Shown here piece after piece: positions 7,395 through 63,633 of a DNA stretch of 64,000 bases. The position numbers and the translations under genes were made by a program. Location: the NCBI GenBank assembly GCA_037833965.1, contig AP031353.1:18168501-18232500 (forward strand). The letters run 5' to 3'. The first letter of the stretch is position 1, and every line of letters begins with the position of its first letter. Under the pieces are notes generated by a model. It was not told the DNA's origin. It saw only the letters and a list, made by a program, of their open reading frames with translations, and ran no database searches. Source of the DNA: Marchantia polymorpha subsp. ruderalis. Lineage: Eukaryota; Streptophyta; Marchantiopsida; Marchantiales; Marchantiaceae.

Positions 7395-7395
<1 letters not shown>

Positions 7396-8045: not shown

Positions 8046-8072
8046 GTCCGTCCGTCCGTCCGTCCGTCCGTC
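8046..8072. repeat. (GTCC)n microsatellite
   Basis: Six to seven perfect GTCC units, then TCTGTGGG units. It marks the right end of the microsatellite-rich GC region. Confidence 0.85.
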
Positions 8073-8199
8073 TGTGGGTCTGTGGGTCTGGCTTTCTCCC
8101 CCTCGATCGGAGCGCTCGCTCGGCTTTTGGGCGAATTTTACCCCGTGATTGCCTCGTTTGCCTCGTGCTTACGTCTCCTCGTTGATCAGACTGCTCCCT

Positions 8200-39577: not shown

Positions 39578-42010
39578 CTACGATAAGGCTGGATTACGAA
39601 GATGTAGAAATCTAGGACAAACTGGAAGTTAGTGGAACAACTTGAGAACAAAATTTTATCTTTGGCTTTTACTATATACGCAAATCATCTCGTCTTTAGA
39701 CTTACATCATTCATCCATAGGAGAGAAATTATGCACCAGAGATGCTAGAATGTCAATCAAATGGATTGTACCACTCAAAGTACGGATGTAGTGTTTGCTA
39801 TAGCACATGAGGATGGAAACTGACATGGAGTAAATATTGGTGTGTGAATGAACCAAGATTTGTCTAAAATAATCTTCATTTTGGAGAAACTAATATTCTT
39901 ACAAATGTGTTGGGTATTACTACGTCTCTAAGAATGTGATTATTATCTATACTTCAGGAGTTCCCGGTGTAACTACAGCAATCAAATCTGCAAGTTCAAG
40001 GGGAGGCAAATAGCACTTTTATTCTAGCTATGGGTATACACATATATATGCTATCAAGGATGCTTACCTTGGAAAAATATTGAGACAATGAGCAAATCCT
40101 ACTTATATAAGGTAATATAGACTGATTTCTTTAACTTGTGTGGACTATCTTAGGCTAGGTGTTTCTCATACCTGAGTTTCAATAGGTGATTTGCACCATC
40201 GGCATGCTATTGGAGCATAACTCCATGTTAGACGTTAGGCTAGGAACTGTGTGGCTTGACCAGGTCTTTTTTTTTCTTTTGCTTCATTAGTTGGTCCACT
40301 CTTCCTTTATTTCTTTACTGCAAATGAAAAACATTCGGCGAATTTTAATGTCATGTTGTAAACATCATGACACCGGAGAGCGGGAAACTTTGGACAGAGA
40401 TGGACTATTGGAGATATGGGAGATGGGGTGGAGGGCAGAAAATGCGTAGTAAGACAAATCAAGACTCCTTCCCTCCTTCCATCCAACACTTAATGATCTG
40501 AAGTAAATTTGGCAAAAGGGTGTGGAGGACGAGAGCCTTGTCCGCTCATGGAGGGGCGGATTGCCTGTAGCCACTTCTTGCTGCTACAAATGTGGCATGG
40601 CCGTTCCTTCTGATTGTAGTGCATGGAACAGGAAAGCAGTAGAACCGCGGACGAGGTCATTGCCATGTCTTGCCTACAGTGGCAGCAGCAGTGCGAAAAA
40701 TCTTGCATGGTTGCACCTAATCATCAGCGGGGTAAGAGGCAGCACCGCAGCTCTTGGACTTTCTCAGCGTCCAGTCAATGGGGACGAGTCGTAGATGTCG
40801 AGTTGAAGTTAAGGCCGCGAGTTTATCGGCGACGTGTGAACGCCTTTTGATCCCAGAAGGAAATTTGTGACACTTTTGGGGGTGTACGCTTCAATCCTCT
40901 TTTGGCGTTGATGAGCTGCTCAAACCTACTACAACTTCTAACTACTAACTACTTACTTCCTGGACACAAACGTCAACCGAGCCTTCAACAATGATCAGTT
41001 TGTTTCCCAAGTGCAACAAGGCTTGACATTTGGGGTGCTCAGGGCTTTGACCGCGAAAAGGCGAAGGTGGATGTCATCACCAGCATTTGCACTGTCTCAG
41101 TCTCGGAGCTGAATGAAATGATTTATCTTGTTCTTCGTGCCACCATCCTTGTGCGGAGCACAAAACCGTGAAGTGAGAGCTCTAGCGTCACCCACAGTAA
41201 TGGGCTTTCCAGCAGACCCACGACTTCATGTCTTTATCGGGAAGTTGAGGATCTCATATCAGCTCCATTCAACTGTGACCGCCAGTTCCTTCATTTCATC
41301 AGCACATCATCAATATTTGTGGTCGAGGTACGTCGTCATGAAGAGCACAACATGGACTAGCAGCACACAAAGTGTCAACTTACTGCTAATCTTCTATGCT
41401 TATAATGTTCATGTGCCAATGTATAGAAAATAGAGAATTTATGTTACAATGTAGTCTAAGTGCCCCGCTTCACCGTCATATGTTTTGTTTTACCTTTTTT
41501 CTCCATATCATTTTGTATTCAGCAACCTTTACGCTCTCAGATCGAGATGAGGATATTTTCATTGGCTAAACATGATCTAGACCTGAGGTAAACACCTCTA
41601 TAGTCATGAGTTTCATTCAAGAGACATTAGAATATGAAGTCAGAGAGATAACAATGTCCACGAAAGTTGAACGTTTGAAAGTTTGGATCTTTATTCCACT
41701 CCTAGGAATATTTAGTGCTTGTTGACAGTAGTATTGCAAAATATCTACACATCGCTATTTACACTTGAAACATTTATGTGATTGAATTGACGTATGCTAT
41801 ACATTGTAAAACACGTGAGTGTAATTACATAATGCAGAACACAACAACACGTAGGAATTATGCAAGATAATTATATCATTGTTTGTATTGTTGACTACAA
41901 AAAGTCCATCCACTTCGATTTGGGAAGATATGAAATTACAGTGGTAACGAGCATCTGCTGATTTTCCAATGTGCGTACGATGGATGGGGATTAGACAATA
42001 GAAACAAATC

Positions 42011-42055
42011 TTGTCAGAGCAGCTCTTAGTTGAAAACTAAGAGCTGCTCTGACAA
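42011..42055. repeat. Perfect short-loop inverted repeat, 21-bp arms
   Basis: Arms 42011-42031 and 42035-42055 are exact reverse complements around a 3-nt loop (GAA). It is unique within the window. Confidence 0.95.
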
Positions 42056-42309
42056 AATCCATAATCGCAAAATTCACTGTCATTGTACTTACGCTAAATG
42101 ATCAAAATGACGTGATCCTTTGTAAGGACAGAGATATTCTTACCTTTTGGGAAATCTAATAAACAATTCAGACGTACCTATGTTTTGGTCAATTCCTCGG
42201 GTGCGGACGTGTTAGAGAAGATGAAAATCAGAGTCGACTAATTATGAGCAGTGGATGGATTAACGTGATCCCGTTCCCAAGAAGGTGTGCTTTCGACGAG
42301 ACAAAGTTA

Positions 42310-42588
42310 CTATGTTTCCCCACGTGCCTTGAATCCTGGATCTGTACTTGTGCATAGGAGACTGGATCCTGAGACTTTGAGAGACCCATCGGCCTCAAAT
42401 TTCAACGGACTGATCAAAGTATGGCCGAGCTGAGATAATAATGAGCTTCCTATCCAGTCCAGAGTCTTAGAAAGGTCCACCTCGTCCACAACAACCAAAC
42501 GGTAGCAGATGGCCTCAACATCGAGCTTGTGATCTGAACCTACGTGCGCGTAGAATTCCTGGAAAATGCTCCGGAGATCAAACTGTCA
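42310..42588 (-). CDS. Orphan exon-like stretch of unknown family
   Basis: The minus strand reads as about 90 residues of well-mixed, protein-like sequence. It contains SDHKLDVEAICYRLVVVDEV and LDWIGSSLLSQLGHTLISPL and ends at a stop at 42310. A plausible acceptor (TTGACTTTTGACAG) lies just upstream, so it could be a terminal exon. I do not recognise the family and found no partner exons in the 42.6-47 kb to its right. It may be the last exon of a gene whose other exons I missed, a gene fragment left by a rearrangement, or chance. Confidence 0.35.
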
Positions 42589-42599
42589 AAAGTCAACTA

Positions 42600-45500
42600 C
42601 CTCTTATTTACAGCAGCAGCTGCTGCAACTGCTGTTGCTGCTTCGTTGTTGGGTAGTTGGTTGTTACATCAATTCCCATGAGTTGACTGTATCTACGGTA
42701 GAATGGTGTACTTTCGCCATAGATTCACTTTTGTTACTTTGTAGATCTGAGTAGCATACGATGGTCTCTCAATTTTACCTACACCGAATGAGCTCTCCTT
42801 CGTTCGAGCATCGGGTGAGGAACTTGGTTCTTTTGTACTGAAGCACCGGTTGGAGAAATACTTTGTGATTATGCTCAAGGACCGGTTCTGGAACACACTG
42901 TGGTCTAAGGTGATGCCAATAAGCATAAAATCATGGACCGTATGTATAATTTATAAAACATTCGCCTTCGAGGCTCATTGACGACAATCGAAGTTGGAAA
43001 AAAGGGCAACACAGTTGAGAATCACTAGAGCTGAGATCTGTCAGAATTTGGAACTCTCAGTTCGTTCGTATCAAACTATCTGCTGCACTCCCAAGATTCT
43101 TAGTTGCTCGTAGGAAAAACGTGCAGTACCTCTGGCGGCATCAGCAGCTGAAGAACATTTTCATATCTTCACCACCTGATCCAGCTTGCTTAAAAATTGT
43201 CATTGATCCTTCTTGCATGTTTCCATGCATTTGAGCTTCTTTCCACCACCTTTAATCTCAGAGTCTGACACTCCTGTAATATCCGTCAGTATTAAAGTGA
43301 ATGATTTTGTAGCCAAATATCATTTAAATGTCATTCAGTTGTAGAGATCTGTCAAACCATTTCATGTCGTATGCTTCCTTTAGAAGCACAGAATATGCAG
43401 AAAGCCTCGAGTCACAGTGGAGACTTCTACTTTAGCCTACAAAATGTCGAAACAGGAAGGGGGTGTTGTATACTACTAGCTGCCATTTTCAACTCAGTCT
43501 CCGAAAGTAGGTAGACCTTGGTGCTTTGCATATGACTGATGTCTGCTGAAAATTAGGCTCACAGTGGTTTTGCAGGAAAACACATCCTGAGTCATAGAAG
43601 AGCACTTACAACAACTGTGCCGCTGGGACCGTATTCAGCTTCTATGACCGGGTCAATTCGCTTAAGATCGCATTTCTGATAGAAGCCATTGACCGAGGCC
43701 AGTTGCCTCTCACTCACTTACTCAATCACTCCAAAACTTCCAGAAATCCGATGAAGAGTCGACTGAGGTGGGAGTAAATGACTTTTTGTAAATTACTTGT
43801 TGCAGATTATGGCAGATGAAATTTGTTGGCTTCTATTGAGACTCTTCGTTTGATCGAAACTTCATACTTGCTGTAAACAATCAATCAGGTCAAGTTAAAG
43901 AGTCGGAGTCCTTGACATCATGAGGGAAAGTCTTCTAAATCAACATACTCAAGGGTTGAAATATCTGCATCAAGATTGTGCATCAAAGTTATCCAACGCG
44001 TTTTCTTCCCTACAATAGCTTCGTAAAGTAGAGTGGAGTGAAGTAAAGTAAATCAGAGTATAGTAAATCAAAGCACTTCTACTTCCACGAGACTCCAGTT
44101 CTACTTGCATCCATGTATGTATGAGAGGGGAGGGGGTTATTGACTTGAACCCAGACTGATTCACCTGGTTCGCAAATTCCAATCTGCTCCGAATCCTGCT
44201 AATAATCCAAGCTTCATTGTCATGTCAATTTTTCAAAGTCCGAGGCACTGCAAGTGTTAACCATGGAATCTGGAATACATGTCCGACTTTTGAATTGACT
44301 GCCTCAGTTGCTCACTCAGATAAATATCATGTCATGAGAAACCAAATGTATAGGAAATTCGATGGAGATTCTGAATGTCGCCCATCGTCAAACGCAGTCG
44401 TAAACATTTGAGTATCTAAAATTGTCTGACTGGTGTGTAGATTGTGAGGTGGAAGAATTGGTTCGGAATTTGAGTCTGATTCTGTCTTGACATTGTGAAG
44501 ATGCTTGGGAGATCTTTCTGATCTCTAGGTGTCCGTGTTGAGCCCAAAAGCCTTTAAACGAACACTTGTGTGTGGTTGTTGAAGTACTATGAAGCTCAGT
44601 TCTCTGTAATTTTTTCTTGCCGGCGAGGTGAAAAGGACGGAAGGATAAACTCTTCGCTGTTGAAAAGCTTAGGATCACCGGCACGTATAACATTTCCCAG
44701 TACTGTCACAAGGCTGATGATTATTATAGTAAAGAAACAAAGTGCGAGCCCTTCCGGTGTAACTGTTCATGATCATGACTCACACATCCCCAGACCTGCA
44801 TACGTAAAGCGAAGAGCTGGAACGTTGAATCTCGGAGTTGACTTCGATTTGGCAGTGACAAACAAGTCGCTGAAATATTAAAGTTGCGTCAATTGCTGTT
44901 GAATTCAAAGTCGGCCTAGTAGTTGAACCTCACGTTACTACAGCAGGACTACACATCCCACTTTGTTACCGAGTGAGAAATTCAAAGTGCCTCTCGAGAA
45001 GTTGCTTCGTTGCTTGCTTCCATCCTGCAAAGGTGCTCGACGTCATTTCTCGTTTACCTTTTGGGGTTTCTTACTAGGACCTTTCCGCTCTACCAGCGGT
45101 CGGTCTAGAACGAGCCTCTTCTTGAACTATCGACGTGCACTTTCCCTAGACGAGCGTGGATGCATGTATAATGTCATGGCTTTCCTCATAAACCTCATTC
45201 CTGGTTGGTGGACAAAAGTGAAGAATGTTGAAAGCCCCAGAAGACAAGAAGGCCGTGCAATTCGCAGAATCTGAGTGTACAGTAAACGTAAATATCTACT
45301 GCTGTTTGCGCTTACTGTGTCTCGTTCATAGTCACTCAGTACTTCATTTTGCTTACATTCTCTTGTAAGCTGTTGTAGGTAGCTCGCTTGTGCCCCCGCT
45401 GCTTGTTAATTATTATTGTTAGAGACAGAATTTGGGCTCGTTTTGGTACAAAGCACGGAATCAACGCTCTCATACGCTGTTGAGGTAGCAGCAGATGGGC

Positions 45501-47440
45501 TGGAGGTTTTACAGTGAGCTGGAAATATCGCATGACTCCTGGTCTTGTACCCGGTATCATACATATCTGCATTATGGCAGTAGTGGGAGAAGATACAATG
45601 CCGCATGTAAAGTCATTGTAGTTTATCAGTGCAGCCAATGGCATCCAGAAAGCTGAGATCTCAAATCCTGCGCGGGGCAAGTGAGTATAGATAATTATTG
45701 TTTAACGTCGAAGATGCACATTTTGGGTCGGTCGGTAGGTCGATTGCGACGGGGGACAAGCCGGTAAGAAAGCATGAATATCTGAAGTTCATTTCCAGCA
45801 CGAATCTACCAAGAAGGCATTGTTAGCAGGCATGAGAATCCGATGATTCTAATCTCAGAACATATCAAAAGCACTTGCCGATACGCAGCAGTAACAACAG
45901 CAGCATAATCTTGTGAGCTCATTATAGGTGACGTAGATTCTTATGAAACCTGATATTTCCATCCACGCTCCCACCAATTGAGCGGCTCTATCGACGAGCT
46001 GGGAACTTACAAAAGGTGCGATCTGCCGCTGCGGCAAATCGGTTGTGTGTAGGCCTATAAAGTTCGAGCATTGGACTCTATTTCACACCCAAGGTCGCCA
46101 TGATTTTGATGCTGCTCGAGGCAGACGCAGGGCCTGGTCTACGGCAAGCCGCACTTGCATCCTCAGAGAAGAGAGCTGACACGGAATCGATACCGATTTT
46201 GACTTCCGGACGTTAGATTCGGACTCACTACCAATCATCGTCGAAGAGAACACGCCAACGACATGAAACCTCGAGCCCAGCCCAGCCGCTCTCCCCAGAA
46301 TTTGTCCCCTGTCAGCACGACCTTATTTCTTGAAGAGATTTGTGTCGTACAACCTTCCTTCCTCTTTCAGACGTGACCACCTTCGCATGGAAAGATCTGA
46401 GAGCTACCTTTTCGCCCTCACTCTCCAATTTCTTGCAAAGTGCAGAGGGCGACGAGGCTGAGAATGCAAGGCCAGGGTTCCGGCTCCTCTCCTCTCCTCC
46501 CTTCCCTCCATTGGCTCTGGTGCCGATGACACATGGGTTCAGTCTGCATGCTCGATTTCGTGCTGGCATTTATGTTGCCGATGGCCGCGGCAACGGCCAT
46601 TTCCCTCACTCGCTCCCTCTCTTCGACTTCCGACGGCCGCGGCAGATGTTGGCATTCAATCGTTCCAGTCCGTCGGAGCGAGCTCGATGTAAAGAGAATC
46701 TGGAGCATGCAGCTGTCTGTCTCCGCGAACTCTGTTCCGTGGCCCACATCCATGGCGCGGTTCTTAATGCCGTATGGCCAGCATGCGGAGTTCTTAACTA
46801 GCCTGTGAGTGTAGACTTTAATTCGACCCCATTTTGTCAACCGAGATTTGTAAACAGTAATGTTAAGTTTCAACGAAATTGCATGTTACCTCCATAAGTC
46901 TATAATAAAATAGACTTATGATACCAACAAATCTACATGGGTTGACAATAGTGCTGTTTGGATATTTAAGAATAAATGTCTCAGGTAACATTCTATCTAA
47001 TTTCAACAAAGAATTGAGAACTTATTATTTAGAGTATATCCATATTTCTTAAATTTGTCTAATTGTTGTATTAAAAAATTAGAAGGTTTTTCTCCTCCAT
47101 TCTATCTACAGTCATTATTCTTCACTATAAGATTTTCAATTCATTTACTTGACACTTTGAGTTTAATTTTATATGTGATGGAATTAAGATACATAAGATC
47201 GTGAATTAAAGAGCAACATGGGAGTTGCAAATTTCAATACAAAAGATTCAAGTTTGATAACTAGCAACAGTTATTTGATAAAATAATCAACACCCTCAAA
47301 AGTTGAAACTGAAAATTGTTATTTGTTATTTCATATTTAAAAGTCAGATCTGGAAATACCATAGAGACATAGAGTATTAGACTGATGTCTCATGAATATT
47401 TATATGAAATAATTTCATTTTATATGTCTAATTTTACAAC
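42600..47440. other. Gene-poor stretch, no gene recognised
   Basis: Mixed-composition DNA with short open frames on both strands. A CAG/CTG-type trinucleotide run lies near 42610-42650. A minus-strand frame at 45336-45680 and the overlapping plus-strand reading near 45610-45680 look slightly exon-like, but neither could be tied to a gene. A 10-bp-arm inverted repeat (CATAAGTCTA) lies at 46893-46920, just left of the large copia element. Confidence 0.4.
46893..46920. repeat. Inverted repeat, 10-bp arms
   Basis: CATAAGTCTA and TAGACTTATG are separated by 8 AT-rich bases. Confidence 0.8.
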
Positions 47441-47450
47441 AGATGTGATG

Positions 47451-47889
47451 TGTTGATTATAGGAGAATAACACACCAATGTATGTGATTCCACTCTACAT
47501 GAGGCTACATTCATAACCGAGATAAAAATTTCACTAAAGCGAGAATGTTATACCATGACTCCATAGCTCAACTCTCCATTATCTCTCTCTCCCCGTAGGT
47601 GTACATGTGAGACTAAACTGAAACGTGTTCATACTAGGGTTAAGTATTACAAACCCTAACTAAAAACCAAGTCTAACTACGGTTAAACTAACTACGATTA
47701 ACAGAACACGGATTAATCTTAAAGACTACTCTTTAATTCAACTATTCGAGGAAGTAGTTTTTATAATTTATATATAGTTTGGCGGAAATTTCTAGAAAGC
47801 AAAACTAAATCATAGCTTTTTGCCTGTGAAAAAAAGTTAATTCTAATTAACTTTTTTTTTTTTTTTTAACCAAATTGTAGTTGACAACA
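47451..47889 (-). repeat. Left (3') LTR of the copia fossil
   Basis: Starts TGTT and ends AACA. The first 110 bases align with the right LTR at 63900-64000 (shared GTAYGT...CTACAT...CCGAG...TTTCAC). The inner boundary is approximate, because I could not see a clear purine tract next to it. Confidence 0.55.
47829..47858. repeat. Perfect short-loop inverted repeat, 14-bp arms
   Basis: AAAAAAAGTTAATT, 2-nt loop, then the exact reverse complement, continuing into a long T run. It lies inside the left LTR. Confidence 0.88.
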
Positions 47890-47934
47890 TGTTAGAGAGA
47901 AACTACATACATAGAAACTATCATGTAATCTAAT

Positions 47935-50858
47935 TCAATGCTGCAAAATCTTCAAAGTTGCTAGGTGTCTTGAAAACTTATCATAAAGAATCCCTTTAGG
48001 AAAATCATTAGCCGAAATAAGCTCTCCATCAATCTTGATGAGCTTAAGTTCATTCTCAGACACAATTTGCTTGATAAAATGATATATGATGTCAATGTGC
48101 TTCACCCTACTAACCATCACTTGGATTCTCAGCAGATGAAGCGCTCTCTCACTATCACAATGAAGATTGCTGTGACAATACTATCTCAGCCATAAGCTTA
48201 TTCAACTAGATTGTTTCCTTTGTTGTCTCTGCTGCTGCAACATATTCAACCTATGTGGATAACAAAAAGATGCATTTTTTTTCTTAGTTGCCAAGTAATG
48301 CAATCACTGAGTGAAACCATACCCAGTCGTTGATTTTCTCTTGTCCAAGCTTCTCCCATTATCAACATCCATATATACCAAAGTTGACTTGGCATTCATT
48401 GCTTTGACATCAAACAATAAACCATGTTATGTAGAATCCTTAAATTACCTAAGTATCCACTTCCCTACTTCCCAATGCACCTTGCATGGATTTGACATGT
48501 ACATGCTCACCTTACCTACAAAAAATGCTATATCCGGTCGTCTGCATATCATCATATACATGAGACTATCCATTGCACTCTCATAAGAGATATAAGATGT
48601 GAAGTCTTTCTCAATCACATCGGTAGGACAGTGCGTTACTGAAAGTAAAAGATGAACAACCAATGAAGTATTCACAAGTTTAGCTTCTATCATATTGAAC
48701 TTCGCAACTTCTCTATATACTTCTGTTGAGATCATCAAAGCTTCCTTGATTTTTGATATCTAAATACTTTCATGCCAAGAATCTTCTTGATTGGACCTAG
48801 ATCCTTCATGCTGAAAGTTGAGCTCAACTCAGCCTTCAACTTATCAACATCAAACTTTCAAGGAGCTGCAATAAACATGTCATCAACAAACAAGACATAA
48901 TGCCACATCAAGAATCTTCTTCAAGTAAACGCAAGGATCGTATTCACTTCATAAGAATCCTTGTGAGTGCATGAAGTCGTTGAAGCGTTTATTCCACTGT
49001 CTTGGACTTTGCTTTGAATTGTATAACAAAGTAAGCAATTTGCATATCATGTTTTTCTTTCCTGTCATGAGATAACCTTGCAATTGTCGCATGAATATTA
49101 TCTCATCAAATAGTATGTCAAAAAAGTGTGTGACAACTATCATTTGATCAAACACTAGATCATATAGAATCACAAGGACACATAGCAAACATTTTGTAGA
49201 GTATTTTGCTATTGGTGCAAAAATCGCAAAAAACGCAAAAGTGTAATCTACACCTTTGCGTTGTCTTGGCTATCAACCTAGCCTTGAAGATTTTCTCATT
49301 TGTATTCGTGAGTCCATACTTCTTCCTTAGACTTACTTACAATCTACTACTCTTTCACCTTGGATACACTCAACAAGCTTTCAAGTGTTGTTGACATGAA
49401 GTGACTTAATCTCCTTCTGCATTGCTGCATTTCACTCTTGCTTCTCACTAGAAGCTAAAGCTTCAGAGAAAAAAGGTAGATCTTCATTTTTAGTGATCAA
49501 ATCTGAATTCTTAGCATCAACTTCAATATCATCAATGGCTGAAGAGTCAAACCAAGTGCCAAATCTAGCCGGAGCTTGACGTTTAGTTGCACTCCACAAC
49601 TCCCACATTGATGAAGATTCTACTTGATCAATTTGTGCTTGTTCTAAAAATGGTTCACCAACAATCAAATCCTCTTGTTTCACAATAGGTGGAACCTCTC
49701 CTTGTGGCCAATCATCAATGGTGTCAATATCAATCTCACTCTCAACGGTGTCAGGGGTAAGAGTCTTGTCCTCGTCAGTAAGGAGAGTATGCATTTCTTT
49801 CTCTCATTCAATGATCTGGATTCATTGATGAAACAATTCTAGTGACAATGATTTGAAAGCATTGACATTTCAAACCTATATTCTTTTACTCCTCTTTGAT
49901 AACCCATAAAGTCACATTTCTTGGCTTTAGGATTAAACTTAGTTCTATTATACTTTGAAGTATGGGCATAAACATCACATCCAAAAACTTTCAACATAGA
50001 GTAATCATCTAGCCGTTTGTATCGCAATCGATGTAGAACTTGTTAGGGCTATAAGTAAACAGGTTAACCAAGTAACTTGTGATATTCACAACTACAGCCC
50101 AAAATGTATGTGGTAAACCAGCAAGACTCAACATAGTTTGAGAGCGCTCCAATAGTGTACGGTTGAGAGTATTAGACACACTATTTTGCTCCGGATTATA
50201 CGGTGTGGTGAGATGACAAATAACGCCTTCATTTTTGCAATACAACTAAAATTCTGTTGAGTTATACTCCACGCCATAATCTATGCGCAAATATCTCACA
50301 TTTTCTCGGTTCTGAATCTCAATTTGAAGCTTCAAATTCTTGAAAATCTCAAAGACCTCAGACTTCTGTTACATGAAATTAATCAACACAAATTTCAAAT
50401 AGTCATTCACAAAGATTACATAGTATAGTTTTCCACAGTGTGAGGGTAAGGGAAAGGATATCACACATAAGAACGAAAGTAATCAAGAATACTTTTTGAG
50501 CTATGCACTTTTAACGTGAAATGCAACTTTTGTTAGTTTGCCAAATACACAATGTTCACAAAAGCTTTGTTTGAATTGCCTCATTTTGGGCAATAAAATT
50601 TGTTTGTGTAAAATTTTTTTCTCTCATGTGTTCCAGTTGGTTGTGCCGCAAATGAAAAATCAAACATGAAAATGTAGTAACATGTGCATCTTCAAAGATG
50701 ATTGTTCACTCCAAGATGTATAGATTTTTAAGCCTTGAGCTCCTTATGAGAATATTGGAATCATCATACTCAAAACTTCACTTTTGATGCTCCATTTGAA
50801 CTTTTTCAAGTCCAAAACTCCAAGTGAAATCAAATTCTTACACATACTAAAGGATTTC
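47935..50858 (-). mobile_element. Copia fossil: RNase H, RT and integrase part
   Basis: From left to right, which is 3' to 5' of the element: an RNase H-end piece (47935-48120); sequence with SLMYMMICRRPDIAF and YMSNP (48445-48738); reverse transcriptase with KQSPRQWNKRF (48949-49188); an acidic linker (49432-49794); integrase C-terminal part with LKVFGCDVYAH (49839-50027); integrase core with TPYNPEQN and NRTLLERSQTMLS (50009-50245); and pre-integrase sequence with KNLISLGVLDL near 50800. All motifs are diagnostic of plant Ty1/copia. Broken several times. Confidence 0.8.
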
Positions 50859-51309
50859 TGTGGTACCCCACTTTTGGTAATTTGGAGGAAATTAAAACAT
50901 TTTTGGAAAACTGTACCACGGCAGCAGTGTAAATAGCCTTCGGTGCATCAAAATAGAGTGAATTCGGAAGATCGCAGAGATTCTCGAGGGAACTCGTAGA
51001 ATCTAGGAGTTTGGTGCAGCGTCAAGGAAGGACACCACCCTCCCTGCGAGCTCTGAAGGTATGATCCCTTCGGCGCAAGGCGCAAAATCCGCCTTCGGCG
51101 CTGCGCCCTCGGCGGTAGGAAAATCCTTCATATTTAGGTCAACCTCCAAACGACTCGACCTGGTTAGGGTTTCGTTGGAAAGAGCTCGACGCGTTGATTC
51201 CAACGAGCCCAAGAGCGCCAACAACGGATGAGGACTCCGGGAGTTATGAAGGTTGTAAGATACTTAGCTTTCCGCCTACGCACAGGCGAAGAAAGTTTTG
51301 TCCTATGCG

Positions 51310-52140
51310 CGGACTGTAAGACCGGGTGTTGCACATATGTACTAAGTCTTAGAAGTGGTCAAGGGAATAAGGATGATTAGCCAAGGCATAGCTAAGACTA
51401 GCTAGTTATGACTAAACTAGTTAGTTATAACTAAGTTTATCTAGTCATGACTAAGTTTAGCTACAATGTCTATAGTTGGCGGAGTAATTAGCGGAGTTCT
51501 AGAAGAATGAAGTGAGCACTTCTATTTTGTCCTTTACAAGGAGTGAGCACTTCTATTTTGTCTTATACAAAAGTTCTAGATTCCAAGGGATTAGATATTT
51601 GACTAGAAACTTGGATTTGATTGGTTTGACTAAATGTATGAAAGATGATTGGCTAGACTAAGTCTAATGTTGACTTAGTGGCTAGGAAGCTTGTAGAAGT
51701 TTAAAAGCTTCCAATGGCATGTCGCCACCTCAACCTTGGATTCCGGAAGCTTCTAGAAGGTTTAGGTAGGCCAATGGCATGTTGCCACGTAGAGGAGGTT
51801 AGTCAAACTTACCTAGGTAAAAGTAAGTTAGGAGAAATTACCACATGTTACTATGGTAACTTCTCAAGTAGTATAAATAGAGAGGTAGAGTAGCACCTCT
51901 CAAGCAAGTTTGGAGAGTCATGTGTGAGGACTTGTTTCAGTAACGAAGGAGTGAAGTTTTTGAGTATCTTGGAGTATCGACGTGTGTTTGCATTTATGTG
52001 AAGAGGGTGATGTGAGGAGAGTTTGTGTGTGAGTTGGAGTGATACATGAGAGTTTGTAAGAGAAGGTGTTTGGGACATGAGTGAGAGTATGAATCTTAGT
52101 CTTCTAGAACCATGATGCGCTACCACAAAGCCATCAGAGG
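51310..52140 (+). mobile_element. LTR-like insertion inside copy 1 (possible solo LTR, fossil)
   Basis: About 0.8 kb of AT-richer sequence with no counterpart in copy 2. It starts near a TGTAAGACC and contains a TATA box (TATAAATA, 51872-51879) followed by an AGAGGT/ACCTCT stem, plus short tandem repeats. That layout fits a solo LTR. The ends and the target duplication are not certain. Confidence 0.4.
51511..51572. repeat. 31-bp tandem duplication
   Basis: Two units starting AGTGAGCACTTCTATTTTGT, with a few differences in the second half. It lies within the LTR-like insertion. Confidence 0.85.
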
Positions 52141-53184
52141 TAAACCTGAGTGAGAGTCAGCTCGGAGGTTGCAGGACGAAGGAAGTCCGCCTGCGCACAG
52201 GCGAAATAGGGTTTGATGTAGGCGTGAAGTTCGCCTACGCACAGGCGTCCACCTGTGCACAGGCGCTTCGGCGTCGGCGGGAAATCCGCCTTTGGCACTA
52301 GAAATGCGCCTTCGGAGGTAGAAATGGTACGGCGCCTTCTGCGCCAGCGCAACGGCGCGGACGAGCAAGGAGCCGCCAGAATAGTAAAATCCGTACGGAC
52401 CGTATGGACTGTACGGACGAGACGGATGGATGCTCTCGTGGTCGGACGGAGTTGTGGCGGCGAGAGCGCCGACGGAGAGACAAGGAACGGACAGTCTGGC
52501 GGGAGGCTGTTGACCGCGGTCAACGCCTTCCGCGCCAGCGCATCGACGCGGACGGACTTCGCCTACGCGCAGGCGAGCGCCTGCGAACAGGCGGGTGAAG
52601 TTCCGCGCCGGCGGAGAATCCGCCGAGGAGTCCGCCTGCGCACAGGCGGGAGTTGAACTTTTGTCCGACGTGCGGACAAGCTCCGGGGCAGAGGAGGATT
52701 GGCTGAGGAGCGGTACGAACGAGTGTACCGCGCAAGGCGGAAAAGCCGCCTTCGGCGCTGCGCACCCATGTCCACGGCGTAGTACGCTCGCGGAGTTCAA
52801 ATTCGCCAATTCGAGCGTGTGAGTTAAATCGGCGTCGGCGGAGCGTGAAGCCGCGCATGAGAGCGGAGACCATTTTAGCGTAGAGCCGGCGCGACCATCA
52901 ATTTAGTCGACCTTCACGGGCAAGAGCCGACCATGACCTTCGACCGGGAGACGGAGAGCGTCCCATTCTTGAATTCGCGATTCCATTTTCTAGTGCGAGC
53001 TGCGCGCGTCCATCTGCTAGCTGCTAAGCATTCCCGACATCGCCGCGCAGAGGATTACTTGGTGATTGAGAGAGAAGTGAGTGCGCGTGATTTGGAATTG
53101 AGTGAGATTAGAGTTTGCCGAGGAAGCAAGGAGCTCAGCAGAGCAGAGGGAGAATTAGCGAACAGGCGAATTCCAAGAACGCAA

Positions 53185-53884
53185 TGTCGAGACTGAACCG
53201 ATTGCGAATGCTGCCGCTCCGACTTCCGCAGAACGGGCTGCGCGCTTACGAGGAACGGCTGATAGCAAGAAAGCTCGATTTCTTGCTATGGGGATGGAAC
53301 TACATTTGTGTGGATATGGTGCGCGAGTGGCTAGAGCCACAGGGACCACCTACGCGCGGATTGCGGCCGCATGTCAATCGGTGGACGGTCCAAGATTGGG
53401 CGCAAGCATTGGGGAGGTGTGCCGGCATTCCAGGGCACCTCCTCTTTGATAGTGAGAGCGTCAAGGTGTCTAAGCAGGACGAGGCGCAATTTGTGGAGCT
53501 GTTCAAGCGGGAGAGTTCTACCAAGAATGGGTACAAGACCCGCGATTACAAGGATCGCTTCCGCCGAACTGTGGCTACGGCGCTACTGCAATTACTGCAG
53601 CCACACCGCGCCTGCTACATCACATTGTGGCAGGTCTCTTTTGTGGAGTGCATCATCGAGGGAGCTCCAATTCACTGGGCGAGCATCCTGCACAGAGTGA
53701 TGCGACAGCACGCTTTCGAGGAGAAGGGGGGAACTCTAAATCATCTCTCTCCTTTCCTAATCAATTTTTATCGGCAGCGAAATTGTTTGACCGCGGCGGA
53801 GCTTGCTCGTTTTCCGCCGTTGTCCGTCGACCATCCCGGGAAGTATGTGCGGGAGAACGAGGTCGACACTGACGCAGAGGAGTG
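53185..53884 (+). mobile_element. Copy 1: gag-like domain region (fossil)
   Basis: About 230 residues with motifs shared with copy 2: LDFLLWGWN, MVREWL, GYKTRDYKDRFRR, VATALLQLLQP, GAPIHWA and GTLNHLSPFLINFYR. The overall pattern (helical, Trp-rich, one domain followed by a low-complexity linker) recalls gag or the putative plant transposon-associated domains. I cannot name the family with certainty. Confidence 0.55.
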
Positions 53885-55022
53885 ACCGACTTCTACTCCG
53901 CCAAGGCGGAGGGACGAAGGAAGAAACACTCCCGCAGCAAGAGTGCCGCGGAAGCGGCGATGGAGAGAGGAGTCCGAAGAGGAGCAGCATCAATAACCCA
54001 CTGCTCCCATTCGGCAGCGGCCGTTGCACGAAGTGTGCAGCCGGCCGAAGCAGAAGGCGCGCAGGCTTGTGTTACCAGCCAGCAGCGCGGACACGGCGAC
54101 GATTGCCACGGAGAAAGGAAGTGCGTCGCTGGAGAAGAACGATGGAGCGCGGACGTCTGCAGGAGCAACGGACCACGCTGCACCTTCGACGGATGAGAGG
54201 CAGCCTACGGGCCAAGGGCCTCCGGAGTTACCACGTGCGTTGCGGACGGGTGTTCCGCCTGCGCACAGGCGTGCCTCGACGGAAAGGCGACCCCAAGCGG
54301 ACGTGGACCTACGCCTACGCGTAGGCAGATGCAGTCCGCCTATGCACATGCCACCTGCGCACAGGCAGGATTCACCCCCGTTTCAACGTAGGAAGGGGAA
54401 GGAGCTGGCGGAAGATCCACCTACGGGTCACGGGCCTTCGGGACCAGACCCTCCGGCGCCCAACGCGCCGCGATTTGCGCCTTCGGCGCCAGGGCCTTCG
54501 GGCCAACGAGATGCGAGCAGGGAGCGTGCGGAGGCCGCACCTTCGGCGGGTAATCCGACGGTAGATGCGCCTTTGGCGGTAGGGCCTTCGGGCCAAGGGA
54601 CATCGGGCAGGCGGCCTCCGGCTATGTCGCCTTCGGCGATAGACGCCTTCGGCGCTGCGCCTGCGGCGGACAAGGCGCCGGCATTTGCGCCTGCGCACAG
54701 GCCTGACACAGCCCTCGCGCATGATCGATCGAGGGAGCAGGACCTGACGGAGGAGCGGATTGACTGTTCGCGGGACGAAATTTCGGTGCGCGATGGGCAA
54801 TCAACCCCCGCGCAGACACACTCCGCTCGATCGCCTTCAGCGACGGACGTCGGCGGCAAAGAGGATACGGTCGAAGACCGTCAAGCGGGCGACGGGGATG
54901 TAGCACGGCCACATTCGCCCACCGCCTTGGACATTTTAGCGAAGAGCAGCTCAGCTGTGCCTTCGCAAGCAGCACCCGTAGACGACGTGCAGCCCCACTC
55001 GGGTTAGTCACCAACGCAATCA

Positions 55023-55980
55023 ATGGCGACTGAAATCCTTAACTCGGATGATGACGGCGGAGGCTCCACGGAAGCAATGTCGGGAGCAGGGGATATCGAG
55101 GAGGAGGAGGAGGAAATTGTTGGAGCCCCTGCGGCGGCGCTCTCTGAGCAGGTGATACCGTTGCTGAAGTACTTGGATCGCAAATTTGATAAATACGCCG
55201 ATCCACTCCAGCCGGGATCTTACATCGAATTAGTGCGCAGGCGGACTCGCACTAAAGTCCACACTAGCAAGCTACTAGCTAGGACGGACCGGGAGTTGAA
55301 GGACTTGAGGGAGAAGCATGCCTGTTTGTGGGGTCAGTACAACCTTGTGAGGAAATCGCACGCCCTCGACAGGATGAAGAAGGAGAGACTGGAAGAGCTC
55401 ACCAGGGATGTGGTGAAGACCACGACAGATTTGATGTCTGAGAGAACTCAGAATCAGATTCTGTCAGAGGAGCTCGTGCGACAGACGCGTTTGTTGGCGG
55501 AGTGTCAGCTTGCACGACAGGCGGATGAGGATTTAATCCGCAGGCTACAGTCGGAGTGTGGGGAATTGAGAGCGCAGCGTGCGGAAGCCGAATCGCAGTT
55601 GGTGGTAATTGAAGATGATCGCAGGCGAGAGGCAGATCGCACGAAGGAGGAGATGGCGAGGCGTGTCGCCCACTGTCTCAAGGGCTACGCCCACTGGGAA
55701 GTGGCGGCGCAGGAGAAACTCACACTGCGTGAGTTTGAGCTTCGCGCAACAGGGTTGTTGGCAGACGACAGCAGGAGTCGGCGGAAGGTGGCGAAGAAGT
55801 TGACGCTTTTCTGTCGAAGGCGCGGGATACCATGTCCACCCTCGAGGTGAAGGTGTCCGCGGCGTTGCAGCAGTTGGGACTGCGCAGTCGAGCGGAAGAC
55901 TGGCAGGGTAGGGAGTTAGTGCGCGGCAGCCCGTCGCGCAGGAGACGTAGCACAGGTTCCGCGGAGTGTAGTGTAGCGTG
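55023..55980 (+). mobile_element. Copy 1: C-terminal coiled-coil region (fossil)
   Basis: An acidic start (EEEEEE), then long Glu/Arg/Leu heptads, then the motif HCLKGYAHWEVAAQEK followed by LREFELRA. That motif is almost identical in copy 2, so it is the best conserved protein part of the pair. Confidence 0.6.
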
Positions 55981-56035
55981 GTTCCGTGCAGGCGTGTAGC
56001 GTAGTGCAGTGTAGTGCTAGTTAGGACTTAGAAGG

Positions 56036-56064
56036 TATAAAATAGTTCAAGGCGTTTTGCCTTG
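56036..56064 (+). promoter_or_regulatory. Copy 1: TATA box plus hairpin near the 3' end
   Basis: TATAAAATAG is followed by CAAGGC-GTTTT-GCCTTG. The same pair, in the same place about 0.9-1.0 kb from the 3' end, occurs in copy 2 (62718-62746). Confidence 0.65.
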
Positions 56065-56448
56065 GATTCTTTCCCTAATTCAGAAGTGTAGATCAGGAAC
56101 TCATCTTCTCTGCGTGTTTGTGTCCTTAGTTCTGTCACCACGCAAGAGGAGCTACAACTTGGCGTTCCGCATTTTGTAGCTGAAGGCCTTCGGTCGAATG
56201 TTCAGAGCTAGTACATTGGTTAGAGACTTGAGTAGTTCGGATCTACACCTGCGGGTGATTGCCGATGCTCAGAGCCAGTGACTAGTTAGATACTTGAATA
56301 GTTTCGCCCCTACACCTTCTGATTGTTTCTGATTGTACTCCTTCGGGATTTTTCCCCTAAATGCCAAAGTGAAGTTTTGCTACTTCGTGTAAGCCTTGGT
56401 CGTAAATTTAGGTTACGCTGCAGCATGTGCCTTCAGGGTAACCCCTGT

Positions 56449-56908
56449 AGTATTTCTGGGAATGACAAGTGCCTGAGAATTCAAACTCTTCAATAGACTG
56501 TTGTTGTGTTACTGGAATGTTTCTCAGTGAGTCCTTCAGTGCGGACCTGTGTTCTCTGCGCGTTTTGTGAGTTGAGAGTGTTGTTCACCGCGTATGAGTG
56601 ACTTTGATCCGAAGTAGGCAGTCCAAACCGGGTTTCCTACGCTAGCAGCAAGCTAGCGGAAGCGTTGTAAAAGCCGGAGTTGGAAGTCACTACCCGCAGC
56701 TTCGCTGAGTGTACTCTTGAGAGACCTTCCCCCTTGAAATTTTGAGTAGAGGTCCTAACGGATCTCTGGGTTGTGTTTCTGTAGTTTCAGGAGTGTGTGT
56801 GTGTGTGTTACGCTGCACTGTGCAACCTCCGAGTGCGCTCCGAGTGGACACTTGCAGTATTTCTGGGAGTGACAGTCGCCTGAGAATTCAAACTCCTCAA
56901 TAATCTGT
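56449..56908. repeat. Direct repeat in the 3' tail of copy 1
   Basis: A segment of about 58 bp (TATTTCTGGGARTGACA...CCTGAGAATTCAAACTC) occurs at about 56449-56506 and again at about 56850-56908. Copy 2 shows only the second (63477-63535). Confidence 0.8.
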
Positions 56909-57005
56909 TAAACGTGACACTTTGTACCCTGTGTGTTTCTCTGTCCCTGTGGGTTCGACCTTTCTACCACTATATTGCAGTTTTAGCCTTTAGTGGGTTA
57001 TTACA

Positions 57006-58040
57006 ATCTCTCGTACGATGATCAAGGTACAGATAATCCCATCAAACATTTGAATCTTCACAGATACAATCGCAACAATTTTGCAAGATTCATCATATTC
57101 TATAAAAACATTACAAGTTGATCGAGTGTAAGAATTAAAGAACTTTTTAAAGTGACAAACGCGATAAAAACAAGTTGAATCCAAAATCCATTCATCATAC
57201 CTAACATGGACGAAAGTACAAAGTGCAGAACCAAAATCTTGAGTTACAATCTTGAGTGTGTATCAGTTGCCTTACTACAACAATCTTTGCAAATGTGATC
57301 AAATTTGCCACATTTCCAACACTTAATGTTCTTACCATCTATAGTTTTAGAAATAGATCTAGAATTGATCTTGATATTTTCATCTACTTTTTTCCTAGTA
57401 GAAGTTCTAACACATGATTCTCTCAAGGTAGTAGACGATGAAGTGAATTGACCAAAAGATGGATGCACATACATCAATAGCTTGTATTGCATGTCGTCGT
57501 TGAAGCGATAACAACTTCATTCTATATGATGATTTTTTTGTTACGGTGAAGCAACACTAATGACAACGACTGATATGAAGCAGGAAAAGAACTCAGTAAC
57601 TAAGTCGCTATTTGCTTATAATTGAAATCTTCTCCAAGGTTCTTAAGATTCACACTCAAATTATTGAAGTCATTTACATGATCTTAGGTCTTAGAACCTT
57701 TTTCCATCTTGAAGTTGGTAAGCTTTAGCTGTATACAACCGGTTAGAAAGCTCTTTCTTATGATACTTCTCACGCAATGCTGCAAACCAATCTGCTACCG
57801 TTGACGCCATCTCCATTTGCTTGAAGACATTTGGCTTAATATACAATATCACAATACTCATCGTCTTGTCTTAAATGTCTATCATCATCTATGTCGTTGG
57901 ATTATGGCTTAAGCTCCTTGCCCAAACTCATAGCACCATGTACACTAGTGACTTGTCGCTCTCACAAGACATACTCATTCTGTTCATCAAATTTTTCCAC
58001 CTCAAACCGTGGAGTTTCAAGCTTACTCACCGCCATTGAT
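57006..58040 (-). mobile_element. Copia fossil: gag and protease part
   Basis: On the right of the first nested insertion lie protease/pre-integrase sequence (57006-57184), a zinc knuckle CWKCGKFDHICKDC (57244-57492) and gag sequence. The gag start lies near 58035 (MAVSKLETPRFEVEKFD). It continues the element cut apart at 50858/57006. Confidence 0.75.
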
Positions 58041-58787: not shown

Positions 58788-58792
58788 GTGAT
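58788..58792. repeat. 5-bp target duplication, left copy (GTGAT)
   Basis: GTGAT directly precedes the TGTGGTAA end of copy 2 and is repeated exactly at 63629-63633 after its TTATTACA end. Confidence 0.85.
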
Positions 58793-60169
58793 TGTGGTAA
58801 CACGCTTTTTGTTTTTTTTGCAGAATTTAAACAATTTTAGAAAACAAGTACCGAAGCAGTGTCTGTAGTTAGAAAAGGGTACGTTAAATAGAGTGGATTG
58901 AGGAGATCGTCACGAGGTCACGAAGAATCGCGAGGTCGGATGTACCAACGCCAAATGTCTTCGGCGCCTTCGGCAAAAGCTCCTTTTCTGAGGTGTCTCT
59001 ACTCACGCGCTCCCAGCGTTCAAGGAAGCTACGCTGCCGGCGCAGACACCTCCGAAGGAGATTTTGCTAAAGACGTCAGAAGAACGGCACGGACCTCTGA
59101 AGGCTTCCGACCATGAGTGCGCCTTCGGCGATGCGCCGCTAGCGCGGAAAAGGAAACCTTCATAACAATCGGAATACACGGTAGTTCCAATTGATTAAAG
59201 TCGCATTGGAAAGAGCTCGGGACGCTCGTCCTAACAAGCCCAAGAGCGTTGGAGATGGATCAGGGACGAAGAAGTTATGAGCATCGGAAAACTCGTAGCC
59301 GGACATGCGCCGTTCGCGCTAGGGTTCACAGTCGGAAAGGACTCCCGTACGCCTTCGGCGATGCGCCTGAATCGCGCGCTCATGGGAGGAAATCAACTCA
59401 GAGTCGGAAGCGCTTTTGGCGGCTGCGCAACGGAAGAAAAGCGCCGGCCGGATGTACGCCTCCGACGTGGCGCTGATAGGCGGATGCGCTGGCATGATTT
59501 GCGCCGGCGGGATATGCGCCGTCAGCAATGGACGAGGCAGAACGGACAAAACAAGCGGTACGAATACGCGCCGGCGTAATTCGCGCCGACTAGATGTGCG
59601 CCTCCAGCAAGGCGCCGACGGATAAGGAACACGCCAGCGGCGACACGCCTCCGGTGATGGTCGGGTTAGGAAAAGACAACATAGCCGACGTATACACTGC
59701 GGCGAACTCGAGTCCGGAAGACGGTGGCGGCGGGAGAATTCAACATTCACGCATGCGAATGCGTGCAGTGCGGAGACGTGAATTCGAGCATGCAAGGGCG
59801 AACCGTTAGGCCGTATAGCCGGCTGCGTAAATTGTAACCAGTAAGAACGTTGGACGATCTTGAATTCGGAGAAGAAAAGACTGCTCTCCAGTCTCATTCT
59901 CTCATTCTTGATTTTGCGATTTCCAGCTTCCAAGAATTCGCGCAAGGGCGGAGAGACCTGCAGTGAGAGGAGAGAGTGCGGAGACGAGTTGCGCAAGGAT
60001 CTTGACAGACCTTGGAGAGAATTTGCGAGTAGCGAACTTGAGCGCAAGAAGAGAGAGTGATTGTAGTCAGTGCTGGAGCGGCCGACGCGCAGCGGCGATT
60101 GTGAGAGAGCGAGCGGAGGGGAGAACGTCTGTGTGTGCAGGAAACGCAATGTCGAAGGTCCCCTAGCTG

Positions 60170-60800
60170 CGAGTGTCTCCACTAAGGGTGCCGCAGATCG
60201 GTCTACGCGCATTCCAAGATGTGCTGACAGGGCTGAAGCTCGATTTCCTCCTGTGGGGATGGAACTGGACATGTCTGGAGATGGTGCGCGAGTATCTGCA
60301 GGAGAGACACAAGCCCTCACGCGGATTCCGTCCACATCCAGAGAGGTGTTGGGCAGGTGTGCCGGCGAGGAAGGGTATCTCCTCTTTGAGGCCGATAGCG
60401 TGAAGGTGTCCAAGGACGAAGAAATCTCCTACAATGAGCTTTTCAAAGTTGCCAGGCATCCCAAGAACGGTTTCCGGACACGGGATTACAAAGATCGATT
60501 GCGGAGAAATGTCGCGACTGCATTGTTGCAGATATTGCAGCCGACCAAGACCGCTTACATGCATGGTTGGCAAGTAGGATTTGTGGAGCTAGTGTTGTCA
60601 GGAGCTCCAGTGCATTGGGCACGGCTCCTGTGGAAGGTGACGCGCCAACATGCGCAAGAAGAGAGAGGAGGAACCCTCAATCATCTTTCGCCTTACCTGA
60701 TTGTGTTTTATCGGACGATGGGATGTTTGACAAATTCAGAGCGGACACGATTTCCGCTGCTGACCCGGAGCTATCCAGGTAGATACTCGCGGGAGGCCGA
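60170..60800 (+). mobile_element. Copy 2: gag-like domain region (fossil)
   Basis: Same domain as copy 1, with LDFLLWGWN, MVREYL, FRTRDYKDRLRR, VATALLQILQP, GAPVHWA and GTLNHLSPYLIVFYR. Many residues are shared, yet the two copies clearly belong to different subfamilies. They are much less alike here than in the HCLKGYAHWEVAAQEK segment. Confidence 0.55.
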
Positions 60801-61700
60801 AGTAGACACGGATCCGGACGAGGCACCTGCCAGTCCGCCTCCGGCTCCGCCCCCAGCAAGAGCAGCAGAAGAACGTCGAAGTGAGCGCGTTCCGCGAAAG
60901 CGGAAGTGGGATGAGAGACCTGAGGACAGGCAGCCGGAAGCGCCAACTGCGCCGACTCGTAGTCGGCCAACCAACGAGCCTCACATCCGACCGAAACAGA
61001 GGGCACGCAAAATGCCAACTAGTATTGAGGAGACCGGACGTACTCCAGTCCGGCGGAGTATCCTGCCCACGCAGGAGGAGATAATCGCGCAGATTCTGGG
61101 GAAGTCGGCAAATACCTCTGCGCAGAAGGCACCAATGCCTTCAGAAGAAGACAGACAGACTGACAGTCGGCCGACTACGAATCGGGCGACTGAAGGTCGA
61201 CAAACGGAAGGAAGGCCGACGGAGTGGCGCGTTGAACCAGACAGCAGGCCGGAAGCAGAAGAGAGTTTGGCTGACGAGCCAACAACCCTCAGAGGGTCGT
61301 CTTCGGCGGAAGGCACTTCTGGAAAAACGCCGCCAGCAAGCAGGCCAAGTGGAGTGAAGACGCGCAGGGTGTATCCGACTACCAGTCGGACACCTGCTAG
61401 TCGGCCGACTGCGAGTCGGTCAACAGAGAGTCGGCCAGATTCGCCGACTGTGAGACGGACAGGGCCGGCGACGAGTGTGCGGACGCCTTCGGCGGACGCA
61501 CCTCCAGCGAAGACACCTTCCGCGCAGATCGCGCCGGAAGAGCAGGCAGCAGAAGCGGGCGGTGCAAATGTGACAAAAGTCACTGCGGCGTCGACCCCTT
61601 CGGAGACCGAAAATCGAGCCGGAACAGGGGCTCAAGCAGTGGGATCCCCCCCTGCCTTGGATATTTTAGCAGGGAGTGGAGCGGCAGTCGCGGCGGAAGC
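60800..61700 (+). repeat. Copy 2: low-complexity linker packed with CCGACT/AGTCGG palindromes
   Basis: The linker encodes Arg/Pro/Thr/Ser-rich sequence of the type TASR/ESRP. At DNA level it carries at least five hairpins with the same stem: 60951-60967, 61374-61390, 61399-61410 (a 12-bp palindrome), 61405-61419 and 61429-61450, plus degenerate ones near 61158-61185. Confidence 0.75.
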
Positions 61701-61739
61701 TGCTGCGCGCCACAGTTCCAGGGAGTCGCCAAGGGATTC

Positions 61740-62685
61740 GGTGGCGACTGAAATCCTCGAAACGGAGGATGAGACGAGCTCGGAAGAGCAGGAAGCGGAC
61801 TCTGTGCAGAAAACGCCAACAGGGGTGTTGTGCGAGCAGATAGTTCCACTCCTGCGATATCTGGATCGCAAGACATCCAAGTACTCGGGTACCGGAAAAC
61901 CGCAGTCTTACGTGGAGACTGTCAAGCGCAGGACGAGGAGCAAGGTGGCCACTTGGGCCTCTAGGTGCCAAACATTGCAGGATAGGAACGCTACCCTCCG
62001 ACAGCACCTGGCGGTCACACAGAAGCTATACCAAACCTTGCAACAGCAGAGGGAGGATGCGGCGACGAAAAACCAGGCGGATGCCGAGCTAATACGGGCA
62101 AAGATCGAGTCGGAATTGCAGGAAGAGCGGAGACAAAACCACATCTTAGCAGAAGAGCTTGCGCGCCAGAAGCGCACCTTAGAAGAAAGTCAAAGTACAC
62201 GCAAGGAGGATGAGGAGTTGTTGCGCAACTTGCAATCCGAGTGCGCGGAATTGAGGGCGCAGCGCGAGGATGCGGAGATGCAGCTAGCAGAGGTGGAAGG
62301 CAGCTGCCGGGCGCGAGAAGAGTTGGCGACGCGGGTGACTCACTGTCTAAAAGGATACGCCCATTGGGAGGTGGCAGCTCAAGAGAAGATCACACTCAGG
62401 GAGTTCGAGCTTCGGGCGGCGGCATTGACGGAGGGTGACAGTCGGAGTCGGCGGCGAGTAGCGAGGAAATTAGAATCCTTCTTGTCGGGTGCGCGCGACA
62501 CTATGGCGCACTTGGAGTCGGAAGTGACTGCAGCCCTCCGGCGTCTGGGGTTGCGCAGCCAGTCGGAAGATTGGCAAGGTAGAGATAGAGAGCGAGGCAG
62601 TCCGGCGCGCAGGAGGCGCAGCACCGGATCTGCAGAGTGCAGTAGTGTAGTTTGGTTTCGTGCAAGTGTTGCGAGTAGTAGATAG
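61740..62685 (+). mobile_element. Copy 2: C-terminal coiled-coil region (fossil)
   Basis: An acidic start (ILETEDETSSEEQEA), long Glu/Arg/Gln heptads, HCLKGYAHWEVAAQEK with LREFELRA, and a basic Arg-rich end (SPARRRRSTGS). It looks like an oligomerisation region ending in a nucleic-acid-binding tail; the role is inferred. Confidence 0.6.
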
Positions 62686-62717
62686 GATAGCGTAGTGTTA
62701 GTTAGGACCTTTGAGGG

Positions 62718-62746
62718 TATAAAGTAGATCAAGGCGTTTTGCCTTG
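62718..62746 (+). promoter_or_regulatory. Copy 2: TATA box plus hairpin near the 3' end
   Basis: TATAAAG, then CAAGGC-GTTTT-GCCTTG. The stem and loop are identical to those of copy 1. Confidence 0.65.
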
Positions 62747-63386
62747 GGTCTCTTCCAGTTTCGGAAGTGCAGATCAGGAACTCACTTTCTTGGCGTGTTT
62801 GTGCATTTTGGTCCTGGCACCACGTAGAGAAGCTGCAGCATAGCGAAGTTACCGTATGTTGTAGCTGAAGGCCTTCGGCTGAATGTTCAGAGCTAGTACC
62901 CGGTTAGAGACTTGAGTAGTGCGGATCTGCACCTGCGGGTGATTTCTGATGCTCAGAGCCGGTTGCGAGTTAGAGACTTGAACAGTTCCCCCTTACTCCT
63001 TCGAGTGACATATCCTGATTGTACTCCTACGGGAAGTTTCCCTTGAATGCCAAAGTGAAGTTTTATTACTTCGTGTAAGCCTTGGTTTGCAATTCAGGTT
63101 GTGTGTGTGTGTTACTGGATTGTGTCTCAGTTAAGTCCTCAGTCGGGCTTGTACCCCCTACGGTTGGTGTGAGTCGAGGGTGACGTCCACGGCGTATGAA
63201 GGGGTTTCGTTCCGAAGGGGGAAGTCCAGTCCGGGTTCCCTACGCTAGTTCCTGGCGGAAGGGCAGTAAAAGCCGGAGTGGGAGTCACTACCTGCAGAAC
63301 CTCTGAGTGAACTTTTGAGACACTTTCCCCCTGAAATCCGAAGCGGAGGTCCTGACCGACCTCCGAGTTGTGCTTTTGCCAGTTTC

Positions 63387-63388
<2 letters not shown>

Positions 63389-63422
<34 letters not shown>
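63389..63422. repeat. (GT)17 microsatellite
   Basis: Uninterrupted GT run in the tail of copy 2. Copy 1 has a short GT run at the corresponding place near 56798. Confidence 0.92.
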
Positions 63423-63423
<1 letters not shown>

Positions 63424-63628
63424 GAGTGACTACGCTGTACTGTGCATCCTCCGAGCATCCTCCGAGTCGAGCACTGCAGTATTTCTGGGAGTGACACTCG
63501 CCTGAGAATTCAAACTCTACAAAAGTCTGTTAAACGTGACACTTTTTACTCTGTGTGTTGCCTCTGTCCCTGTGGGTTCGATCTTTTTACCACCATACTG
63601 CAGTTTTAGCCTTTGGTGGGTTATTACA

Positions 63629-63633
63629 GTGAT
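63629..63633. repeat. 5-bp target duplication, right copy (GTGAT)
   Basis: Exact repeat of 58788-58792, directly after the TTATTACA end of copy 2. Confidence 0.85.

Follow-up and report, generated by a model that had tools for sequence, protein, structure and literature searches.

A stretch of 64,000 nucleotides from Marchantia polymorpha subsp. ruderalis (contig AP031353.1 of assembly GCA_037833965.1, positions 18,168,501 to 18,232,500; hereafter the window) carries a 4836-bp unit with TGT...ACA ends (copy 1, 58793-63628, plus strand) that is flanked by a 5-bp duplication, contains a long open reading frame (ORF) and lacks terminal direct repeats, which raises the question of what kind of mobile element it is. 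A BLAST search of copy 1 against the window found a second, diverged unit with related ends in the same orientation (copy 2, 50859-57005, plus strand, 6147 bp). Both copies are probably solo long terminal repeats (LTRs) of one plant LTR retrotransposon family with giant LTRs (4.8 and 6.1 kb), whose U3 region codes for a protein of about 850 to 940 codons under purifying selection. LTRs are ordered as U3, promoter, R and U5, with a fast-changing U3 and a 3' end that is kept, and a solo LTR retains the target-site duplication and has no terminal repeats. The solo-LTR reading is favoured because duplication-flanked TGT...ACA units without terminal direct repeats are combined here with a TATA box placed some 0.9 kb before the 3' end, a conserved 3' part and a fast-changing 5' part. 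An earlier, sequence-only reading of copy 1 had left two options, a retroelement derivative that lost its LTR design or a new group of dependent elements; a retroelement derivative does fit the solo-LTR features, the new group is not favoured, and no loss of LTR design needs to be invoked, as the whole unit looks like one LTR.

Copy 1 begins TGTGGTAACACGC and finishes GGTGGGTTATTACA, and the perfect GTGAT duplication reported for it was confirmed at 58788-58792 and 63629-63633. Since the ends of copy 1 are fixed by homology with copy 2, this duplication was not picked from many choices; by simple arithmetic with equal base frequencies, a perfect 5-bp match at such fixed ends is expected by chance in 1 of 1024 cases and a match of at least four of five bases in about 1 of 64. 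When all TGT/ACA pairs lying at most 100 bp from both ends were scanned blindly for perfect 5-bp flanking matches, two of the 18 pairs of copy 1 had one, the reported pair and 58810/63541 (CTTTT), as did none of the 21 pairs of copy 2. Copy 2 is flanked by ATTTC (50854-50858) and ATCTC (57006-57010), and it is the one relative sharing both ends with copy 1 that was found within the window, with a 5-bp near-duplication (4/5) and no LTRs. Terminal direct repeats were looked for by aligning the first with the last 300, 1000 and 1500 bp of each copy and comparing the result with 50 dinucleotide shuffles. None were found at the ends of copy 1, in agreement with the earlier reading, as 45 of the 50 shuffles were as good at 300 bp and 42 at 1000 bp, nor in copy 2, where 28, 28 and 44 of 50 were as good at the three lengths. 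The 1500-bp test of copy 1 did give a weak match between 59992-60231 and 62200-62441 that no shuffle reached, which was rejected as an LTR since it lies far from both ends.

The part of the two copies that starts at the TATA box is the best conserved piece of the element. In copy 1 the TATAAA box (62718-62723, plus strand) lies 32 bases past the stop codon and is aligned with the box of copy 2, which starts at 56036, 36 bases past the stop. The sequence before it in copy 1 (58793-62717, plus strand), which we propose to be U3, is fast-changing, has a GC content of 0.57 and contains the ORF, and the 911 bp of non-coding sequence behind (62718-63628, plus strand), putatively the promoter, R and U5, match copy 2 at 82% of 876 aligned bases. 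The corresponding part of copy 2 measures 970 bp (56036-57005, plus strand) and includes an extra block whose sequence recurs closer to the end (86% over 57 bp). From TATA box to end the divergence is thus 18% (bootstrap 95% range 15.5-20.5%; 95 transitions and 63 transversions), whereas synonymous sites differ by 64% in the ORF block that is conserved best. Along the alignment, identity is about 0.5-0.63 in the 5' part where it can be aligned at all, 0.40-0.77 in the ORF and 0.66-0.94 in the 3' non-coding part, reaching about 0.9 in the last 120 bp or so; in 60-column windows it is 0.63-0.76 over the final 300 bp or so of the ORF and 0.66-0.94 beyond, apart from one window that is all gap. 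The high 3' conservation could come from constraint or from recombination between lineages, which two copies cannot tell apart. No Rfam family (at gathering scores) and no ARAGORN hit was found anywhere in the window. A TG dinucleotide run at 63390-63422 within this 3' part is shorter in copy 2.

The ends also bear on a different explanation, in which each copy would be a non-autonomous DNA transposon that has short terminal inverted repeats, makes 5-bp duplications, holds a single gene and depends for its movement on an unknown transposase. The short, imperfect terminal inverted repeat described earlier does exist, as copy 1 shows 10 matches among the 20 terminal bases and copy 2 shows 13, levels equalled by 1.6% and 0.03%, respectively, of 100,000 random window pairs. 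Together with the perfect 5-bp duplication of copy 1, the lack of LTRs and the single conserved gene, this is what such a transposon would have, and the Revolver element was interpreted in this way (PMC2851119). Past the first 20 bases, however, no inverted likeness was seen, as local alignment of the 60 bases at each end was equalled by 87 and 105 of 500 shuffles. The two ends are also unequally conserved, with an identity of about 0.9 at the 3' end (last 120 bp or so), while the first 92 aligned bases at the 5' end reach about 0.63. A DNA transposon would also leave unexplained why 0.9 kb of 3' non-coding sequence is conserved above synonymous sites and why a TATA box follows the stop codon, and we regard it as quite unlikely.

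The gene in the proposed U3 is broken in both copies. In copy 1 (60149-62685, plus strand) its ATG corresponds by homology to the copy 2 start; a stop codon comes early, the frame changes near 60346, and the gene is then open to a TAG at 62683-62685. In copy 2 (53184-55999, plus strand) the frame that begins with the ATG at 53184 is interrupted by three in-frame stops, changes near 55800 and closes with a TAG at 55997-55999. Measured from ATG to stop codon, the genes are about 845 and 938 codons long, respectively. Copy 1 has an ORF of 871 amino acids at 60070-62685, and because of the early stop and the frame change its first 91 codons or so lie outside the conserved frame and are not part of the conserved protein. 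Three blocks of the gene were compared between the copies, stop codons excluded. The domain block (154 codons, 61% identity) differed at proportions of 0.64 of synonymous (pS) and 0.28 of nonsynonymous (pN) sites, the middle block (306 codons, 36% identity) at 0.71 and 0.46, and the C-terminal block (223 codons, 52% identity) at 0.79 and 0.33, synonymous divergence (dS) being saturated and not computable in the last. Changes in the domain block fell on the three codon positions at 0.305, 0.26 and 0.545, and when its frame was shifted as a control the selection signal was lost (pS 0.35, pN 0.38). Because pN is below pS in the gene blocks and the signal is gone in the shifted frame, the protein is, judging from this substitution pattern, one that purifying selection kept during the divergence of the family, although both copies in the window are broken.

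Two parts of the protein stand out. The conserved domain (60343-60822, plus strand) has 61% identity to the copy 2 protein over 160 amino acids and no family match, and presumably bears a loose likeness to PF20167. The C-terminal part (61780-62682, plus strand; 52% identity to copy 2) holds the long coiled coil noticed before, for which both the heptad test on copy 1 (1 of 100 shuffles as good) and a predicted single helix of 176 residues (42-217) speak, the predicted local distance difference test score (pLDDT) being at least 90 at 108 of the 301 modelled residues; AlphaFold gave no usable model for the domain of copy 2 (mean pLDDT 40). The label "gag-like" given to the protein found no support, as no gag or capsid family was matched in Pfam or PHROGs. 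Pfam gave for the whole copy 1 ORF only matches below the curated cut-offs (best CENPH, E 0.083), and for four pieces of the ORF, at E up to 10, none above cut-off (best DUF1690, E 0.0098); no match to PF20167 or PF03078 was listed for the ORF, with HMMER filters that drop most weak matches. A PHROGs search with the copy 1 ORF and the copy 2 domain gave no match, and PDB sequences, searched with the copy 2 domain only, gave weak ones, the best being a designed TIM barrel (E 0.012). Of two DNA patterns, the one scanned against prokaryote contigs yielded no match, and the one scanned against viral contigs hit L001, which was rejected as a relative, being an isolated match of 21 bases.

If the copies are solo LTRs, the 5' 4-5 kb would be U3 carrying the gene, transcription of the full element would start past the TATA box, and the 3' 0.9 kb would be R-U5, the leader of the genomic RNA. 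Reverse transcription would copy U3 with its gene into both LTRs, the 5-bp duplication would be made by the integrase of the element, or by that of a helper if the element is non-autonomous, and later recombination between the two LTRs would delete the inside and leave a single LTR with its duplication. Among the ORFs on the genomic RNA of a complete element, the gene would come last, in the same way as the additional 3' ORFs of some plant retroelements. Mouse mammary tumour virus, an animal retrovirus, has its sag gene inside the U3 of the LTR, as is proposed here, and in a comparable last-ORF place; we know of no link between sag and the protein in the window. The same facts could be read as a free-standing retroelement derivative, that is, single TGT...ACA units with 5-bp duplications, a single conserved coiled-coil gene and a conserved non-coding 3' part that never had two LTRs and replicated by an undescribed route. 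Both copies are indeed single, with a duplication or near-duplication, and packaging or priming could be the role of the conserved 3' part. Nonetheless, to our knowledge there is no replication route by which an RNA starting 0.9 kb before the 3' end could give rise to a complete TGT...ACA unit flanked by an integrase-type duplication, and ordinary solo-LTR formation explains the same facts, so that we think a free-standing unit unlikely.

The surroundings of copy 2 help to define the limits of the element. Copy 2 is inserted in a decayed Ty1/copia element on the minus strand, whose downstream half (47938-50858) holds an SH3-like domain (49842-50042) and an RVT_2 match (48952-49269), and whose upstream half (57006-58039) holds a Pol_BBD match (57008-57262) and a match to Retrotran_gag_2 below cut-off (57694-57870), with the gag start presumably near 58039. 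At the upper border of copy 2 the Pol_BBD match stops at profile position 59 of 81 (positions 1-59), and past the other end the minus strand begins KNLISLGVLD, which we take to be the usual continuation after Pol_BBD in copia proteins. Copy 2 thus splits the copia pol gene, with Pol_BBD on one side and KNLISLGVLD on the other, and the element does not extend beyond TGT...ACA. It was also considered whether copies 1 and 2 might be the LTR pair of one old element with a 1.8-kb inside, as they have the same orientation and are 1787 bp apart; but copy 1 has a perfect duplication of its own, the outer flanks differ (ATTTC against GTGAT), the stretch between the copies holds the copia gag and pol pieces on the opposite strand, and the 5' parts differ at about 40-50% of aligned bases. 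This explanation can hardly be right and was rejected. A copia LTR as the target of copy 1 was likewise dropped, as its flanks, compared with 40000-50858, gave at best E 0.18 among the matches listed. Within copy 2, an AT-rich block (51290-52180, plus strand), which has a TATA of its own at 51872 and hardly any counterpart in copy 1, could be a nested insertion; no TG...CA pair with an exact 5- or 6-bp duplication was found for it in the ranges scanned.

Several observations weigh against the solo-LTR reading. The comparison of the family rests on two copies, both within the window, and no two-LTR form, primer-binding site, polypurine tract, reverse transcriptase or integrase of the family was seen in those 64 kb. 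It would be unusual for LTRs to measure 5-6 kb and contain a long ORF. The TATA word alone is weak evidence, as TATAAA occurs 32 times on the plus strand of the window, and of four polyadenylation-like words none is present in the 3' part of copy 1, copy 2 having AATAAT at 56899. Folding of the copy 1 3' part exceeds that of shuffles only mildly (z -1.85, with 1 of 20 shuffles as good), and the idea of a structured 3' RNA was set aside as unconvincing. Protein scans of viral and prokaryote contigs confirmed no relative. The flanking duplication of copy 2 has one mismatch, a Pfam search with the 37-amino-acid copia piece that begins KNLISLGVLD gave no match, and the copia frame across the joint is one base off when one 5-bp copy is removed and open without removal; this last point is not decisive because the copia element has many other defects.

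Two further side observations were made in the window. Both 58793-62717 (8 against a mean of 0.9) and 50859-56035 (13 against 1.3; 100 shuffles each) have an excess of the word CTTCGG, which often sits in a UUCG-type hairpin, compared with 3 against 3.1 in the GC-rich control stretch 5500-13000. A likely multi-exon plant PPR-repeat gene lies at 27565-33787, where PPR models matched one of the four pieces tested (30645-31430).

Among known systems, the closest published case is that of the Revolver and LARD LTRs of Triticeae, the latter being, we assume, of the Sukkula type. Both were compared by published description. According to the Revolver review, LARD LTRs are about 5 kb long and, as here, can also stand alone or sit within another retroelement; their ends are related and their middle varies strongly, but they are called non-coding (PMC2851119), whereas the middle of copies 1 and 2 codes for a protein once under selection. 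Revolver of rye has, like the copies, a single gene, short imperfect inverted TGT ends and no known transposase, and differs in its length of 3 kb, its protein of 139 amino acids encoded with introns and its TATA, which lies close to the 5' end; no target-site duplication turned up when the same text was searched by term (PMC2851119). The ends of Revolver are stated there to be partly homologous to the 5-kb LARD LTRs, which are regarded as solo LTRs (PMC2851119). Published plant LTR ends resemble those in the window by eye, including Revolver TGTgAcGCCC / TGTaAtGCCC (PMC2851119), Retrosat2/RIRE8 TGTCACACCC...GGGCGTGACA (PMC3485330) and the commonest Del U3 att, TGTAACACCC (PMC4029996). Retrosat2/RIRE8 further shares long LTRs (more than 3.2 kb in Retrosat2), 10-bp inverted TGT ends and an extra ORF, but this ORF0 is upstream of the gag-pol ORF and outside the LTR (PMC3485330). 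The Athila-type 3' ORF (Transposase_32) is non-enzymatic and lies behind pol in plant Ty3/gypsy elements, approximately the position of the U3 gene proposed here; the extract of that source places it at the 3' end of the element and does not state its location relative to the LTR (PMC11728184), and the ORF in the window matched neither of the two Pfam models named above.

According to the 2010 Revolver review, no gene-encoding LTR had yet been identified (PMC2851119), and a search of the open-licence literature for exact phrases on ORFs in LTRs returned one paper, on mouse mammary tumour virus and a human betaretrovirus (PMC9412291), which is no proof of absence. If the solo-LTR reading is true, plants have LTRs bearing a long protein gene that was once under selection. 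Every new insertion would then hold two copies of an accessory gene, and solo LTRs would preserve that gene alone in the genome, suggesting that some "orphan" coiled-coil genes in plant annotations could be pieces of LTRs.

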